Shown in pieces: positions 1,956 to 55,605 of a stretch of 64,000 nucleotides of DNA (within the stretch, counting starts at the first letter, position 1; every line of letters begins with the position of its first letter). The notes beneath the pieces were generated by a model, which was not told where the DNA came from, made no database searches, and saw nothing but the letters and a program-made list of their open reading frames with translations. Source of the stretch: Candidatus Chloroploca asiatica (lineage in GTDB: Bacteria > Chloroflexota > Chloroflexia > Chloroflexales > Chloroflexaceae); contig NZ_LYXE01000182.1 in assembly GCF_002532075.1 (NCBI RefSeq), positions 1 through 64,000 on the forward strand, given 5' to 3'. The translations under genes were made by a program, and so were the position numbers.

Positions 1956-4900
1956 ATGCCCTCACTGAAAAAGAAAGCCCTCTCGCTCTACCTTCGTACG
2001 GGCTGCCAGCGCCAGCTTGTGCTCAATCTTTACAATGATGCCGAGCGTCGTGCTAACGGGATGCCCGAACGCCAGCAGGCACGCGCTGGCCTCGGCCTGA
2101 CCGGGGCGATGGGCTATGCATGGCAGGACGAGAAGGTCAGCGAACTGGGCGCGGTCTTTGGCAACGATGCCGTCCATATCAACCCGGTGAAAAAAGGCAA
2201 CCGCCCTGGATCGATCCTGCTCGCAACGGTGCTGCCTCGGCTCAAGCCATACCAGTTTGTGGTTGAGGGGCACTATGACGCGGCCACGCAGACCTTCAAG
2301 GACGCAGTCGGGATCGCGACGCTCCAGGATGCCGCTGGCCAGCCGCTTGGTGTTGGCGACGCGCTGCCCGACCTGATCCAGGTGCTGCCACCGGCGGCCC
2401 ATCCTGCTGCGTGTGAACTGGTGGGGCAGGATCTGGGGCCGGTGGCGACGATGCTGGCCGTGCAGCCAAACGGCGATATCGTTGCGCTCGACCCGGGCGA
2501 TCAGCGGCTGCGCCTGCGTGTTATTGACATAAAGCTCTCGGCGGAGCCGGGGGCGCACTACTTTGCCGAGGTGGTGTACTACTCGATTACGCTGGCGGCG
2601 TGGCTGATCGAGCACCACTGGGCTCAGGACTTCGTCGTGGTCGCCGCACCCGCCGTCTGGCCCGGCTCTTACGACGCCTCGCAGATCCGTCAGGTGCATA
2701 ACCAGTGCCAGAAGGAGGGGCGCAACCCAACCGCTGAGGAACTCGCCCTCGCGCTCGAAGATGATATCGAGGTTGCGCCCTTTGATGCTTTTGCCCCGCG
2801 GCTGCGGCGTTTTTTCCAGGAGGAATTGCCGTTTGTCCTCAATACGCCGTGGGATCAACTGCCCTGGCATGTCTCGCATGCCTGCAAAGGCTGTGAGTTT
2901 CTCGGCTACCCCTGGCTCGACAAGGCTGGCAAGCTGACCAACTCGGCGCTCCACTGCTGGCCGACGGCTGAGGCGCGCCATCATCTGTCGCGTGTGGCTG
3001 GCCTCTCCAAGGGCGGGGCCAAGCTGCTGTGTAGCGATGTGGCCGATGTCACACGGCTTGCTTCACTCTCAGCGGGAGATGCCGTGTTTGAGCGTAGTCC
3101 TTCGCTGCGTGCGAAGCGCACGGTCTACCCCCATCGCGCGCGAGCACTTGAGGCTGATCTGACGGGCATTATCCCGAACTCTGGTGGTGATGCGCTGATG
3201 CCGCGCTGGCCCGATCTGCACATCTATCTCTTTCTCGATTATGATCTTTCGAGCGCGATCACGGCGACCTTCAGTCTCCGTGCCTTCTGGAAAGAGCCGC
3301 TCCCGTTTGGCGCGACGCTCGAGGCGCAACGTCAGCGCTGGGCGGCCCGCCACGAGGGCAAGCCCACCGGCTTTCAAGAGGTTTTTCTGGTTGACCAGCG
3401 CAACCTGACGCGCGAGCGCGAGGAGTTGCTCAAGTTTCTGCGTACGCTGCGCGGCATCATTACGACCGTTGAGCAGCATGATGAACGCGATATCAACGAT
3501 ATGCGGCGCGGCGACGTCAATGAGCCGAAAAAGCTCAAGCGCAGCACGTATCAGATCTATCTCTGGGACGAAGCCCAGCGCAAACAGTTGACCCGTGTGG
3601 TCGGGCGGCATCTGCCAGCGATCCTGGCCGATCCCAACGTGCGCGATCTCGCCTGGCTTTTCCCGCCCCCCGAGCTGCTGACGCACGCGGAAGAGGCCTC
3701 GTACAAATCGTCGTTCACCTTTGTCTCTGCCATTGTGCAGAACACCGTGGCCGTTCCGGTGCCGCACCACTATACCCTGCTGGAAGTAGCCCAAACCTAT
3801 CACCCGGCGAACTTTCCTGAGGTCGCGGTGCATCCGCTCTACCGTGAACCACTGAGCGACCTGATCCCCGGCGAGCGACTGCACGACATGTGGACGCGGC
3901 GCGGCAACTACACCCAAACTCAGCGCACGATTGAGGAGACGGCGGGGCGCAAGTTGCAGGCGCTGGCCTATGTGGTCGCGCAACTCGAGCAGGATCTCAA
4001 AGATCTCCTGGTGCGCGCCGCTGCGCCGCCCTTGGTGCGCAACCTGAAGCGGCTCACTGGCGTACCGCCGCGCAGCATGCTCTGGTACGAATATACCCGG
4101 CTCAACCAGGCGCTGGCCGAGCTCGACGAGCATACGCTGCGCGCGATGCCGGCCCACGAGCGTGAGGCGCGCTTCAAGTCGGCTCATCTACACGAACGGC
4201 TCGAAGACCAGGCGAAGCTTGATGCGCATGATCAGCTTCAGAAGACTGTGCAGCACCCGCTTGATCTGCCGTCCAACCTGTTGATCTACCGGCTCAACCG
4301 CGACTCCTACGAGTTCAATGTCCGCCCGCCGGCCATGGGCTACGCGCTCGCCCCCAAGAGCGACCCGGCGTTTCTGAGCCGGTCGGCCTACCCACTCATC
4401 GACGGCACGGGCATCAAGATCAACGGGCGACTCGCGGGCTCAGTTGCCGAGGCCGGCCTGACCAGGGTCTCGGTGGTCGCGATCGACCGGGTGAAGGGCC
4501 TGATTGCCCTCAAGCTCTGGCACGCCAACTGCGCCCTGGATCTAGAGCGGTTGGGCCTCGCTGATTTTCGCACCGACGTGATGCTCGACCCCGTCGGTGA
4601 CGATTATCTCTCGAAAAAGCTCGCGCTCACGCTTCAGGGCATTGGACGCCCCGCCTCGGCTGGCGAGGATGCCCAGGCGGCCCGCGCCCTGGGGTTGACT
4701 GATCCACATGCGTCGACGGCAACCCCTGAAAGCCCCGCCTCCGCGTTCCTCTGGCAAGCGCCGGTTCTGGCCGCGACGCCCGTTACCCGTGCGACGACCG
4801 CTGCCCAGGCGCGATTGAAGGAGCGCGGGGTAAGTCTCAACCCCTCGCAGTGGGCGGCATGGGAAGCCGCCCTGACCCGACGGCTCGCACTGATCTGGGG

Positions 4901-50897: not shown

Positions 50898-53800
50898 CTA
50901 GGACCGGTGCTCTTCGCCGGCAAGGCGCTGTAACTCGGCAAGCCGGTTGAGCGCGTCGAGTGGCGTCAATTCGTTGATGTTGAGCCGACGGAGGTAGGCG
51001 ATCACGGGACTCGGCGCAAGGTCAAAGAGACTCAATTGCCCTTCGTAGGGCGGTGCACTGAGCGCGACCGGCGCTGGTTCCAACACTGTTTCAGCAGGCC
51101 GCGTCGTGGGTCGTGCGCTTGGCGCTACTGCTGTCTCATCGTGGGCAGGGCGCTCGTCGCCTGGCGCTTGCTCCACTGACAGACTCGGCCCGGTCGCGCC
51201 GTCGCTGCGCCCTCGTGACGGCGATGCCCCACTCGCTGCCGAGTCGGTAGGCGTCGGTTCAGCACCTGCTTCGCCGGGGGCAAGCGGCTCTCCGGACTCT
51301 TTCCCCAGTTGCTTGCTCCGCTCTCCTTCGAGTTCACGCAGCAACGCGCTCGCCCGTGCGATCACGGCCTGGGGAATGCCGGCCAGTTGCGCGACATGAA
51401 TGCCGTAGGAGCGATCGGCCCCGCCTCGCCGGAGTTCGTGCAAAAAGACGACCTGGCCCTCTTTTTCGACCGCCGCCATATGATAGTTGCGCAGGCGCGG
51501 CAAAACCGCTTCTAGCGCGGTCAATTCGTGATAATGGGTCGCAAAGAGCGTACGGCAACGCAGGCGCGGTTCGTTGTGAATGTATTCGACGACGGCCCGC
51601 GCAATCGCCATGCCATCGTAGGTCGACGTCCCGCGCCCAACCTCATCGAGAATGATCAGGCTCCGCCGGGTGCTCTGCAAGAGCAACGCTGCCGTTTCGG
51701 TCATCTCGACCATAAAGGTGCTCTGGCCGGTCGCGATGTCGTCTTGCGCCCCGATCCGCGTGAAGATTCGGTCAACTAGGCCAATCGTTGCGGCTTCAGC
51801 GGGCACAAATGAGCCTATCTGCGCCATCAAGACGATCAAGGCCACCTGGCGCAGACAGGTCGAGTTGTGGCTCACCAGGCCGTTGGCGAGATAGGCGTGA
51901 TCGTGGTCAACCGACAGATCATAGACCTCGGCCTCGCCGGGGGTCAGGCTGACCACCGGGTCGTAGAACGGGCGTTGCTTTGGCACGCGAAGGCTGCGCT
52001 TGGGATGCAAAAGCACGTCATTCGGCAACGCATCGAGCGGCAACCCGACCATCGTACCTTCGACTGTCGCAATGAGGCCCAGGTTGAGCAACAAGAGTTG
52101 CACCTGCTGCGCAATGGTTGTTGAAGGCATAAGCCAGTGAAGCATGCCGGAGGGTTGGAAGGAGGCGAATTTGCTCGCACAGAGCCCCTGCAAAAAGGCG
52201 ACAATCGTCTCGCGGGGCGCACCGAGCAGCGCATCCGGGAGGGTGCAGGCACACTCGGCAGAGGCGGTCGCCGTGCAACAAGCTTGCTCTGGATGGGCCT
52301 GGGCAAGGCTGTCATCAGCCGCCGTAGGCAAGGTCGCATCCCCCTGTGAAGTGTTGGGGCACTGGTGCGACCTTGCGTCCTTCATACAGCGCCCACCCAT
52401 CACCGTCGGGATCGTGCCCCGGCTCCCGAGGTTATACCCAAGCTGATAGGCCTGGGCCGGGGCGATCGTCGGATCGCGCCCCCAAAGATTGACGCCGCAG
52501 ATGATGGCAAGCCGATCACCGGGTTGCAGATCACCGAGGCAACGCCACACCTCGTGGCCGTCGGCTTGCCGCACGCGCACGCGATGCTCGGGCGTGCCCT
52601 CAAGCGTAAAGCCGTGCTGGGTGGTCAGCCTGATGGTGGCCTGACACCCCCCGCGATAAAAATGAGTCGCCTCGCGGGGTTGCTCAAGGCCTTGCACTAC
52701 CCTTCCGAGGGGCGCAAATGTGCCTTCGACAGCCCCAGATGGCATCAGATCGGCGATGCGCACCAGGCCGTGCTCACTATAGACCAGGGTCGCGCCAACG
52801 ACACACTTGCCCGCCATATTGGGGCCAGTGATGATCAGCAGTTGCGCCTCGTCGGTATCGAGCCCCAGATCATTCGGGACAAACGCATCTTCGAGGACCT
52901 GCTCGACGACGGGATGGCGCCCGGCGGTAATCTGGAGGCGCGTACTTGCTTCAAGGTTCGGACGGGCATAACGCCCGCGCACCGCAGCCTCGGCGAGCGA
53001 GGCTATCGCATCGAGGTGCGCCAACGCTCGCGCCGCTTTGCGCAGCCGCTCGACGCCTTTGCTCAGCGCCTCGCAGAGCCGCCCGAAGGCATCGCGTTCG
53101 AGATCGGTCAGTTGCAACCTGGCCCGATCAATGATCTGCTCGTACTCTTTCAGTTCAGCCGTAATATAGCGCTCGGCACTGACCAGCGTCTGTTTCCGCT
53201 CATAATCTTTTGGAATCAGCCGCTCATCCACGTTGCGCGAGAGCTCGATATAGTAGCCAAAGACATTGTTATACCCAACCTTGAGCGCTTTGATCCCGGT
53301 ACGCTCGCGCTCTTTGCCTTCCAGTCGATCAATAAATTCCTGCGCATGACGACTCGCCTGCACCAGCGCATCCATCCGTGGGTCAAAACCGGGGCGGATC
53401 ACGCGCCGCGGGCGTTCGCCGCCCTCTTCGGCAGCGCGCAAATAATTGGAAGCCCCAAGCAGCGCTGGCGGATCATCATCAAGCCCCGCCTCGAGCAGAG
53501 CCAGCAGATCGCCACATGGATCAAGCAGCGGCTGCTGCGCCACCACCGCGTCTTCAGCGTCCCCAAAGAGATCGTCCTCGCCTGCTGCGGACGCCGCTGC
53601 TCCCGCGTGCGCAGGGTCAGCGTGGCCCGCAGCGAAGAGCGCTGCCTCCGCTGGCAACAGCTCAGCGAGGGCACCGTCAGTCGCTGCGAGCACCGCCGGC
53701 AGCGCCCGCAGCGAACTGCGCAGTTGCACAAGGTCACGCGGGGTTGCCACACTGATGCCCTGGGCAATGCGATTGAGCGCACGTTCCATGTCACCCACCG

Positions 53801-55052
53801 GGCCGAGCGCCTCACGCAACGTAGCGCGCAGCACCGTTGCTTCGACCAACCGGGCCACCGACGCCTGGCGGGCCAGCAGCGGCTCCAGTTCCAGCAACGG
53901 CTGATTGAGCCAGCGGCGCAAGAGGCGCGCCCCCATTGGCGTACGCGTACGGTCGAGCACACTGATCAGGGCCGTTTTCGCCCCCTGGCGCTGTGGCTCA
54001 AGCAACTCAAGGTTGCGCCGGGTCTGGGGATCCAGCAGCATAAAACTGCTCGTTGTATAGACGCGCAGCGTATTGAGTTGGGCCGCATAGTGGCGCTGCG
54101 TCTCGTGGACATATTGGAGCAACGCACCGGCAGCGCGGGTTGCCAGGGGGTGCGCATCGAGGCCAAAGGCGGCCAGCGAACCAACGCGCAACTGACGTAG
54201 CAACACCTCGGTCGCCTCACGCAGATCCCAGCGCCAGGCTGGCCAGGCCGTCACGTGGCCCTGTGTCCAGCGCGCCTCACTCGCCTGGTCAAGCCGTCGG
54301 GCGACCCGCTCGTGCGGCAAAAGCATGTCGCGCTCATCTTTGGTCATCGGCGCGAGATCCTGGGTCAAACGGGATTGCGACGGGGCAAACTCGGGCAGGC
54401 GCAGATTCTCAAGATCGGGTACCAGCACCTCGGCAGCCTGGAGGCGCGACAACTCACCGTGCAACTGGGCTGCGCTCCGCTCGCCGTGAAATTCAACCGC
54501 CGCAAATTCACCCGTACTCAGATCGGCATAGGCCAACCCAATCGCCTCACCTTCCACCAGGGCTGCAGCAAGATAATTATTTGTGGTCGCAGCCAGCATC
54601 GAGCTATCAACGACGGTGCCGGGCGTAATCACCCGGACAATCTCGCGATGCACCATCTTGCTGCCGTGTTCAGTGGGCGTCGTCTGTTGCAAACCCGAGG
54701 CAAAGACCGAGCGCGGGCGCGTATCATTGCGCGATGCCTCGGTCTCCGTCATCTGCTCGGCAATCGCCACCCGATAGCCGCGCCCAACGAGATCGGTCAC
54801 ATAGCGCTCAACCGCGTGGTACGGCATCCCCGCCATTGGCGCATAGAGCTTCTGCTGCTCACGGGGCTTGCTCTTATCAACCGCATAATCTTTGCGGGTT
54901 AGCGTCACATCAAGCAACTCGGCGATCAGCTTGGCATCATCATCAAAAGTCTCATAAAAATCGCCAAAACGAAAGAGCAAGATCGCATCAGCCGCCTGAT
55001 CCTTTAGCTTGCGATACTGGCGATACCAGGCATGAATCTCAATCCTCGCCAT
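50898..55052 (-). CDS. mutS: DNA mismatch repair protein MutS with intein inserted in the Walker A P-loop
   Basis: 1384 residues including a 314-residue intein, so 1070 after splicing. The mismatch-binding domain starts at once (LLFRFGDFYETFDDDAKLIA, Phe-x-Glu), followed by connector, lever and clamp. The ATPase reads GPNMAGK just before the intein and STCLRQVALI after it, so splicing restores GPNMAGKSTCLRQ. Walker B LIILDEVGRGTSTYDG and the HTH end follow. The host is longer than usual owing to an acidic insertion (about residues 480-540) and a low-complexity linker near the C-terminus. The ATG at 55052 (MARIE) is chosen over one at 55145 because it starts the family N-terminus and follows aroK by four bases. 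Confidence 0.93.
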   Translation of the reverse strand: MARIEIHAWYRQYRKLKDQAADAILLFRFGDFYETFDDDAKLIAELLDVTLTRKDYAVDKSKPREQQKLYAPMAGMPYHAVERYVTDLVGRGYRVAIAEQMTETEASRNDTRPRSVFASGLQQTTPTEHGSKMVHREIVRVITPGTVVDSSMLAATTNNYLAAALVEGEAIGLAYADLSTGEFAAVEFHGERSAAQLHGELSRLQAAEVLVPDLENLRLPEFAPSQSRLTQDLAPMTKDERDMLLPHERVARRLDQASEARWTQGHVTAWPAWRWDLREATEVLLRQLRVGSLAAFGLDAHPLATRAAGALLQYVHETQRHYAAQLNTLRVYTTSSFMLLDPQTRRNLELLEPQRQGAKTALISVLDRTRTPMGARLLRRWLNQPLLELEPLLARQASVARLVEATVLRATLREALGPVGDMERALNRIAQGISVATPRDLVQLRSSLRALPAVLAATDGALAELLPAEAALFAAGHADPAHAGAAASAAGEDDLFGDAEDAVVAQQPLLDPCGDLLALLEAGLDDDPPALLGASNYLRAAEEGGERPRRVIRPGFDPRMDALVQASRHAQEFIDRLEGKERERTGIKALKVGYNNVFGYYIELSRNVDERLIPKDYERKQTLVSAERYITAELKEYEQIIDRARLQLTDLERDAFGRLCEALSKGVERLRKAARALAHLDAIASLAEAAVRGRYARPNLEASTRLQITAGRHPVVEQVLEDAFVPNDLGLDTDEAQLLIITGPNMAGKCVVGATLVYSEHGLVRIADLMPSGAVEGTFAPLGRVVQGLEQPREATHFYRGGCQATIRLTTQHGFTLEGTPEHRVRVRQADGHEVWRCLGDLQPGDRLAIICGVNLWGRDPTIAPAQAYQLGYNLGSRGTIPTVMGGRCMKDARSHQCPNTSQGDATLPTAADDSLAQAHPEQACCTATASAECACTLPDALLGAPRETIVAFLQGLCASKFASFQPSGMLHWLMPSTTIAQQVQLLLLNLGLIATVEGTMVGLPLDALPNDVLLHPKRSLRVPKQRPFYDPVVSLTPGEAEVYDLSVDHDHAYLANGLVSHNSTCLRQVALIVLMAQIGSFVPAEAATIGLVDRIFTRIGAQDDIATGQSTFMVEMTETAALLLQSTRRSLIILDEVGRGTSTYDGMAIARAVVEYIHNEPRLRCRTLFATHYHELTALEAVLPRLRNYHMAAVEKEGQVVFLHELRRGGADRSYGIHVAQLAGIPQAVIARASALLRELEGERSKQLGKESGEPLAPGEAGAEPTPTDSAASGASPSRGRSDGATGPSLSVEQAPGDERPAHDETAVAPSARPTTRPAETVLEPAPVALSAPPYEGQLSLFDLAPSPVIAYLRRLNINELTPLDALNRLAELQRLAGEEHRS
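51864..52805 (-). other. Intein in MutS, degenerate LAGLIDADG type
   Basis: 314 residues, from Cys1 (CVVGATLVYSEHGLVRIAD, block A) to the terminal HN (DHDHAYLANGLVSHN, blocks F/G), with Ser as the +1 residue. Block B has GTPEHRV with the TxxH residues. The middle shows LGYNLGSRG and FLQGLCASKF where LAGLIDADG enzymes have LGxLLGDG and FLRGLFDADG, so both catalytic acids appear lost. A Cys- and Ala-rich stretch between them is unlike known endonucleases. Splicing residues look intact; homing activity looks lost. Its insertion site between Lys and Ser of the P-loop makes MutS inactive until splicing. Confidence 0.9.
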
Positions 55053-55056
55053 GAAG

Positions 55057-55605
55057 TCAACTCCGTCTCCCACGCACCAGTGCATCTGTATACGCAGCGA
55101 CAATCTGATCGGTAATCGTCTCAGGCGTGAGGCCACTCGTTTCAACCGTCACATGGGCAACCTCGGCATACAAGGGGCCCCGGGCCGCCCGCATCGCGGC
55201 GAGGCGCGTTGCTGCCTCATCGCCAAGGAGCGGGCGTTCTTCAGCGTCGGTGCGTAGGCGCGCCAGCAGCAACCGATCGGGTGCATCAAGCCAGACGACA
55301 AAGGCATGCTCGCGCAGCAACTGACGATTCGCGGGTCGCAACACAATGCCGCCGCCCGTCGCCACAACGGCCAGTTCACCCGCAAGCGCCTCAGCGAGCG
55401 CCTCAGCCTCGCGCTCACGAAACGTCGCCTCGCCGTGGGTCGCAAAAATCGTCGGCACCGGCATCCCCGCCGCGTGCGCCACCAGCACATCGGTATCACA
55501 CAGCGGACGCCCAAGCCGCGCCGCCAGCACCGGCCCCACCGTAGACTTGCCCGCCCCGCTCAGCCCCACCAGCACAAGTGGGCATTCAGGTGACCCCTGC
55601 GTCAT
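55057..55605 (-). CDS. aroK: Shikimate kinase
   Basis: 182 residues. Walker A GLSGAGKSTVGPVLAARL (about residues 13-30), the shikimate-binding Asp in LCDTDVLVA, Arg in FREREAEALAEAL, and VVATGGGIVLRPANRQLL are typical. It phosphorylates shikimate in the aromatic amino acid pathway. No other aro gene is in the window. It starts an operon with mutS (four-base gap) and fabH-like. The ATG at 55605 is used; the N-terminal extension is a few residues only. Confidence 0.93.
   Translation of the reverse strand: MTQGSPECPLVLVGLSGAGKSTVGPVLAARLGRPLCDTDVLVAHAAGMPVPTIFATHGEATFREREAEALAEALAGELAVVATGGGIVLRPANRQLLREHAFVVWLDAPDRLLLARLRTDAEERPLLGDEAATRLAAMRAARGPLYAEVAHVTVETSGLTPETITDQIVAAYTDALVRGRRS

Follow-up and report, generated by a model that had tools for sequence, protein, structure and literature searches.

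An intein at the MutS P-loop of Chloroploca retains a constrained half of its decayed homing endonuclease

The mutS gene of Candidatus Chloroploca asiatica is split by an intein of 314 residues, which sits between the Lys and the Ser of the Walker A motif and runs on the minus strand from position 52805 down to 51864 of the 64,000-nucleotide stretch analysed here (the window). Our joint reading, to which we give a probability of about 0.85, is that this is a self-excising class 1 intein at the K/S site of the MutS P-loop, that its family has spread between phyla by homing, and that this copy has lost both endonuclease acids and kept the second half of the nuclease, most likely as support. The insertion site leaves unspliced MutS without an intact ATP-binding loop. 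The constraint on residues 190–274 of the dead nuclease is newly described here and provides a testable case in which a host protein comes to need what is left of a mobile element.

Anatomy of the intein and its host protein

The minus-strand open reading frame that ends at 50898 reads ...ITGPNMAGK/CVVGATLVYSEHG...LANGLVSHN/STCLRQVALIV..., with the intein boundaries at GPNMAGK/CVVGATLV and ANGLVSHN/STCLRQ (slashes mark the junctions). The gene is taken to begin at 55052, the first ATG compatible with the MutS profile, with a TTG further upstream at 55145. The sequence flanking the intein matches NF003810 (892 bits, E = 3.6e-268) and TIGR01070 (E = 6.3e-252), and all five Pfam MutS domains (I to V) score above cut-off, identifying the protein as MutS1. 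Certain intein-bearing proteins have “exception” models in NCBIfam; the matches here included no such model for MutS. A sequence-only reading of this DNA had proposed a 314-residue intein that splits the Lys/Ser pair of the MutS Walker A motif and has intact splicing ends. Its coordinates are exact to the base, the split is read directly in the frame and the flanks on both sides fit the two MutS models, and Cys1, GTPEHRV, the terminal HN and Ser+1 are all present.

Table 1. Coordinates of the intein-bearing mutS gene and its parts in the window
Feature	Coordinates	Strand	Evidence
mutS, intein-bearing precursor	50898..55052	-	five MutS Pfam domains, NF003810, TIGR01070
N-extein: MutS domains I–IV and Walker A through GPNMAGK	52806..55052	-	translation, profiles
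Intein, Cys1 to Asn314	51864..52805	-	translation, profiles, alignment
N-terminal splicing part, residues 1–118, including Cys1 and T71..H74	52452..52805	-	dN/dS 0.13–0.21; predicted model, pLDDT block means 90–98
Remnant of first nuclease motif and predicted disordered, Cys-containing loop, residues 119–189	52239..52451	-	acid position Ser; dN/dS 0.15–0.50 in two sub-blocks; pLDDT <50 at 133–185
Second nuclease half, residues 190–274	51984..52238	-	acid position Lys; dN/dS 0.09–0.12; predicted folded to about residue 260
C-terminal splicing part, residues 275–314, HN end	51864..51983	-	dN/dS 0–0.07; TIGR01443
C-extein: Ser+1 and remaining part of MutS domain V, stop codon included	50898..51863	-	PF00488 positions 10–188

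Splicing residues are fully preserved. Across 19 MutS inteins, namely that of the window and 18 loci found by the genome scan described below, C1, T71, H74, D296, H303, H313 and N314 are invariant, and Ser+1 is found in every case; block names and residue roles follow the class 1 scheme (block B TxxH, block F/G, C-terminal His-Asn). On the window protein, TIGR01443 (intein_Cterm) reaches 30.4 bits, its cut-off being 15.6. Pfam Intein_splicing, with a gathering score of 35.8 bits, gives 30.3 bits for the whole precursor and 35.4 bits (E = 1.1e-8) for the isolated intein, which thus falls 0.4 bits short, and TIGR01445 (intein_Nterm) gives 19.4 bits, under its cut-off of 24.5. The closest PDB relative by sequence is the GyrA intein of M. 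xenopi (E = 1.2e-5).

The AlphaFold model of the intein has a mean pLDDT of 79.3, with block means of at least 90 in the splicing part, for which a HINT fold is predicted. This part of the model lies nearest the GyrA intein of M. xenopi (Z 21.6 over 144 residues, 1.8 Å), and the whole model nearest the VMA intein of Thermococcus litoralis with its nuclease domain (7qsu; Z 25.2 over 265 residues, 3.5 Å). As judged from its sequence, the insert is a class 1 intein, splicing-competent by anatomy. We propose that the MutS precursor would be translated without an intact P-loop, that the HINT domain and the half nuclease would then fold and pack against each other, that Cys1 would undergo an acyl shift followed by transfer to Ser+1, and that Asn cyclisation would release the intein and leave normal MutS. 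Acyl shift, transfer and Asn cyclisation constitute the chemistry of class 1 inteins.

Inteins are classically inserted between Lys and Ser/Thr in P-loops, as set out in the accessible parts of PMC5050341 and PMC5874633. The MutS intein shares its placement with the P-loop inteins of RadA, DnaB and the phage terminase TerL1-a, which according to the same sections and to those of PMC6195587 are likewise inserted between the invariant Walker A Lys and the Ser/Thr that serves as +1 nucleophile. It differs from them, on the same partial accounts, in that its host is the mismatch-repair ATPase MutS and in that its nuclease is half decayed, rather than absent or whole.

Selection on MutS and its dependence on splicing

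In a profile search of the window genome (5,839,665 bases in 199 contigs), the interrupted mutS was the sole MutS_I match, and MutL was found as well. With a single MutS_I protein whose P-loop is split by the intein, mismatch repair, if active, needs splicing, in agreement with what the sequence-only reading had claimed. Elsewhere in the genome, at G000:C165:3075-3641, a MutS domain V match contains two in-frame TGA codons and is perhaps a decayed MutS-like gene.

Among the three Chloroploca species, dN/dS is 0.09–0.12 for the N-extein and 0.14–0.20 for the C-extein (0–0.06 for its first 200 codons). Such strong purifying selection on both flanks, in a precursor that has no intact P-loop, argues that splicing works, and the constraint on the flanking sequences implies that the intein splices in the cell. 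We consider it very improbable that splicing has failed, leaving MutS dead and the genus without mismatch repair; the modest profile scores for the N-terminal splicing part would fit such a failure, but the flanks and the splicing residues alike are under strong purifying selection in all three species.

Splicing might also answer to DNA, redox or temperature, with unspliced MutS giving rise to a temporary mutator state. The host is the sole mismatch-recognising MutS of the genome, P-loop inteins of RadA and DnaB behave in this manner according to the available portions of PMC5790916 and PMC6195587, and the intein carries 11 Cys in 314 residues, compared with 5 in the 1102 residues of the exteins. 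Most of the extra Cys, however, lie in a predicted disordered and weakly constrained loop, and MutS evolves at a dN/dS of 0.09–0.20, as in species that need it; we regard a conditional switch as unlikely, though a legitimate hypothesis given those analogous inteins.

Constraint on the endonuclease remnant

The remnants of the two LAGLIDADG motifs read LGYNLGSRG and FLQGLCASKF, as had been reported from the sequence; Ser occupies the first acid position and Lys the second, the catalytic Asp positions being assigned as is usual for the family. At E 0.01, no LAGLIDADG family profile matches the window intein; PF14528 matches 16 of the 19 MutS inteins. Because both acids are lost, homing looks dead in this copy. 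To that extent the earlier view of a dead endonuclease stands, but it gave an incomplete picture, since the second half of the nuclease (residues 190–274) is under strong purifying selection.

We compared the three Chloroploca inteins using Nei–Gojobori counts; as the species are closely related, their pairs are not independent. The whole splicing domain has a dN/dS of 0.12–0.17 and the nuclease remnant 0.18–0.26, and within the remnant the values are 0.15–0.50 for residues 119–138, 0.32–0.47 for residues 139–189 and 0.09–0.12 for the 85 codons of residues 190–274. In a neutral simulation with transition bias (1000 replicates, window versus C. mongolica), median dN/dS was 0.78–0.81. Values as low as those observed were reached in none of the 1000 replicates for residues 1–118, in none for residues 190–274 and in 25 for residues 119–189. 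Residues 190–274 are thus under purifying selection as strong as that on the splicing domain, and these two measures indicate that they have been kept and that the preceding loop is much freer. In the predicted structure, residues 133–185 have a pLDDT below 50, and a segment from about 190 to 260 is modelled with confidence. Within this segment the second LAGLIDADG position falls on a helix, after which come strands and another helix. Purifying selection together with this predicted fold suggests that residues 190–274 are a splicing scaffold, and we think that the constrained half of the dead nuclease has probably been kept because it supports the splicing domain structurally.

Precedents among archaeal inteins point in both directions. 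The model resembles the VMA inteins of T. litoralis (7qsu, Z 25.2) and Pyrococcus horikoshii (7qst, Z 21.4). The accessible text of PMC8966425 describes the P. horikoshii VMA intein as likewise without both LAGLIDADG acids; the hosts differ from ours, being V-ATPase subunits, and in P. horikoshii the architecture of the nuclease domain is retained. The T. litoralis VMA intein loses most of its splicing when the nuclease domain is removed (PMC8966425, same portion), and in P. horikoshii RadA a vestigial endonuclease loop is required for splicing in the native flanks, as reported in the part of PMC5790916 available to us. A scaffold role is nevertheless not the rule, since the P. horikoshii VMA intein splices without its inactive nuclease domain according to that same text of PMC8966425.

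It is possible, if rather doubtful, that this is an ordinary decaying intein whose nuclease is drifting to loss after fixation, and that the constraint on residues 190–274 stems from the stable folding of the precursor, or from a sample of too few species, these residues having no part in splicing. The homing-cycle model, as presented in the accessible sections of PMC8966425 and PMC1654191, fits such a course, both acids are lost in 6 of 19 family members, and the loop of residues 119–189 is weakly constrained (the 25 neutral replicates above) and in the copy of Candidatus Chloroploca sp. Khr17 has taken in a genomic repeat. Against this, the 85 codons have the same low dN/dS as the catalytic splicing parts, a value never reached in the neutral replicates. 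It is also conceivable, but improbable, that the half nuclease has been co-opted as a regulatory element that couples MutS splicing, and with it restoration of the P-loop, to DNA binding or redox state. If so, these filamentous phototrophs would be able to switch mismatch repair, and hence the mutation rate, at the post-translational level.

The Khr17 loop holds 30 more codons than the others, which form part of a dispersed palindromic repeat; this copy lies in frame within the MutS intein at L036:6188-6311. The repeat measures about 65–120 bases and has at least 72 matches in Khr17, at least 56 in C. mongolica and at least 27 in the window genome, both strands of the palindrome being counted. 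We claim no frameshift origin for residues 119–189: in a tblastn search with the nuclease parts of other MutS inteins against the three Chloroploca inteins, the strong ones among the matches listed were all in frame +1, and the best off-frame match among them had an E of 0.031, uncorrected for many comparisons. Synonymous divergence (dS) among the Chloroploca genomes is 0.35–0.50 in the nuclease remnant (51984–52451), 0.17–0.25 in the exteins and 0.14–0.34 in neighbouring genes; in one pair the splicing part has a dS of 0.17, which is not raised. The higher value in the remnant could stem from recombination or from a different codon constraint.

Distribution, mobility and known relatives

All three Chloroploca genomes examined carry the intein, the sister genomes Candidatus Chloroploca mongolica and Candidatus Chloroploca sp. 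Khr17 having the insert in frame at 89–90% identity. We surveyed the family with a query that combined the intein end and the MutS ATPase, which matched 38 of 41 genomes. Four of these 38 hold the intein: the three Chloroploca (open reading frames of 1416, 1416 and 1444 residues) and one further genome, G370 (1454 residues). Empty alleles, put forward earlier as a check on the intein interpretation, are common among relatives: the remaining 34 matches have reading frames of intein-free length (927–1135 residues), and in all seven of them that were read directly GK and ST are joined, as GPNM[AS]GK/STV[LM]RQ. Among the congeners of G370, three have a MutS match and no intein, and one has no match.

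Beyond the family, 326 of 400 genomes drawn from the phylum had a MutS match, and at least 8 had an intein at the identical site. Two peptide patterns, a design that may miss other MutS inteins, were then used to scan the genome collection and yielded 28 loci. Eighteen are MutS inteins at the identical K/S site, distributed over four phyla (13 in Chloroflexota, 2 in Latescibacterota, 1 in Poribacteria and 2 in Parabeggiatoa); seven of them are the same contigs as those of seven phylum-sample genomes other than the window's own. Nine loci have other exteins (L083 and L086 among them), and L084, which shares its assembly with L070 and represents a fragment with the C-junction of MutS, was left out of all counts. 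Apart from L083 and L086, we take the other exteins to be ribonucleotide reductase, RadA/Sms and DnaB, as named from their motifs. In two Anaerolineales, L080 and L081, inteins occupy the corresponding K/S position of the P-loop of other proteins near 4001, which by their motifs are presumably RadA/Sms-like. The suggestion that an intein in this gene and site might be rare did not hold: with the identical site filled in at least 18 further loci across four phyla, the MutS intein is not a rarity.

The 19 inteins represent different states of the nuclease. Asp is present at both LAGLIDADG positions in nine, at the first only in three, at the second only in one and at neither in six, the last group comprising the three Chloroploca, L072 (the G370 contig) and two Herpetosiphonaceae. 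Full-length members such as L059, L060 and L062 have 437–438 residues and Asp at both positions. They share with the window copy the insertion site and homologous splicing and nuclease parts, and differ from it in that the window copy lacks both acids; those that keep both are, on their sequence, presumably still mobile. The MutS inteins are a homing family whose members appear to range from live through half-dead to dead, in a gene that guards the mutation rate. Within this one gene and across four phyla, they offer a natural succession of steps in the homing cycle.

Sequence identities point to past homing of this family. The inteins of the Anaerolineae genome A05DMB and the Latescibacterota genome B68 are 73% identical and their MutS proteins 50%, and since the intein identity exceeds that of MutS, the intein appears to have moved between these phyla. 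Only some of the pairs speak for transfer, because intein identity exceeds extein identity in just 66 of 171 and the intein tree has little resolution, with stars on 4 of its 16 inner branches compared with 10 of 16 in the MutS tree. As far as identities can tell, inteins crossing phyla explain the pairs in which the intein is the more similar; nuclease decay inside lineages may account for a large share of the others.

No vector emerged from our searches. The tblastn search found no match in plasmids, and phages were rejected as a vector, with just 12 phage records of 26–33% identity over 32–40% of the query. The viral contigs of P0002 gave no relative, and in those of A1 the MutS junction, searched as one fixed pattern that would miss a junction of another form, was present in none of the best 80 of 138 relatives.

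A survey of eukaryotic and eukaryotic-virus inteins includes, in the portion accessible to us, two MutS-like inteins in Mimiviridae (PMC5784728); these too reside in a MutS-family protein, the hosts being giant-virus MutS-like proteins. The authors of a 2024 review state, in its available text, that they are aware of no intein-bearing eukaryotic MutS gene except in nucleocytoviruses (PMC12292046). For inteins of filamentous gliding sulfur bacteria, the accessible parts of two papers name other host genes (PMC6390638, PMC4853749). No bacterial MutS intein was found among the papers listed by our searches of freely available literature, and the phrase “MutS intein” occurs in none of the papers covered. 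The MutS P-loop allele therefore appears not to have been described from bacteria within that literature, which does not prove its absence from print.

The window genome holds a second intein at L167:1163-3736 (minus strand, G000:C23), located between ...NEGWA and SYWHS... of a protein that we take, from its sequence, to be SpoVR-like. Inteins precede the same SYWHS junction in L013, L014, L019, L021, L023, L024 and L029.
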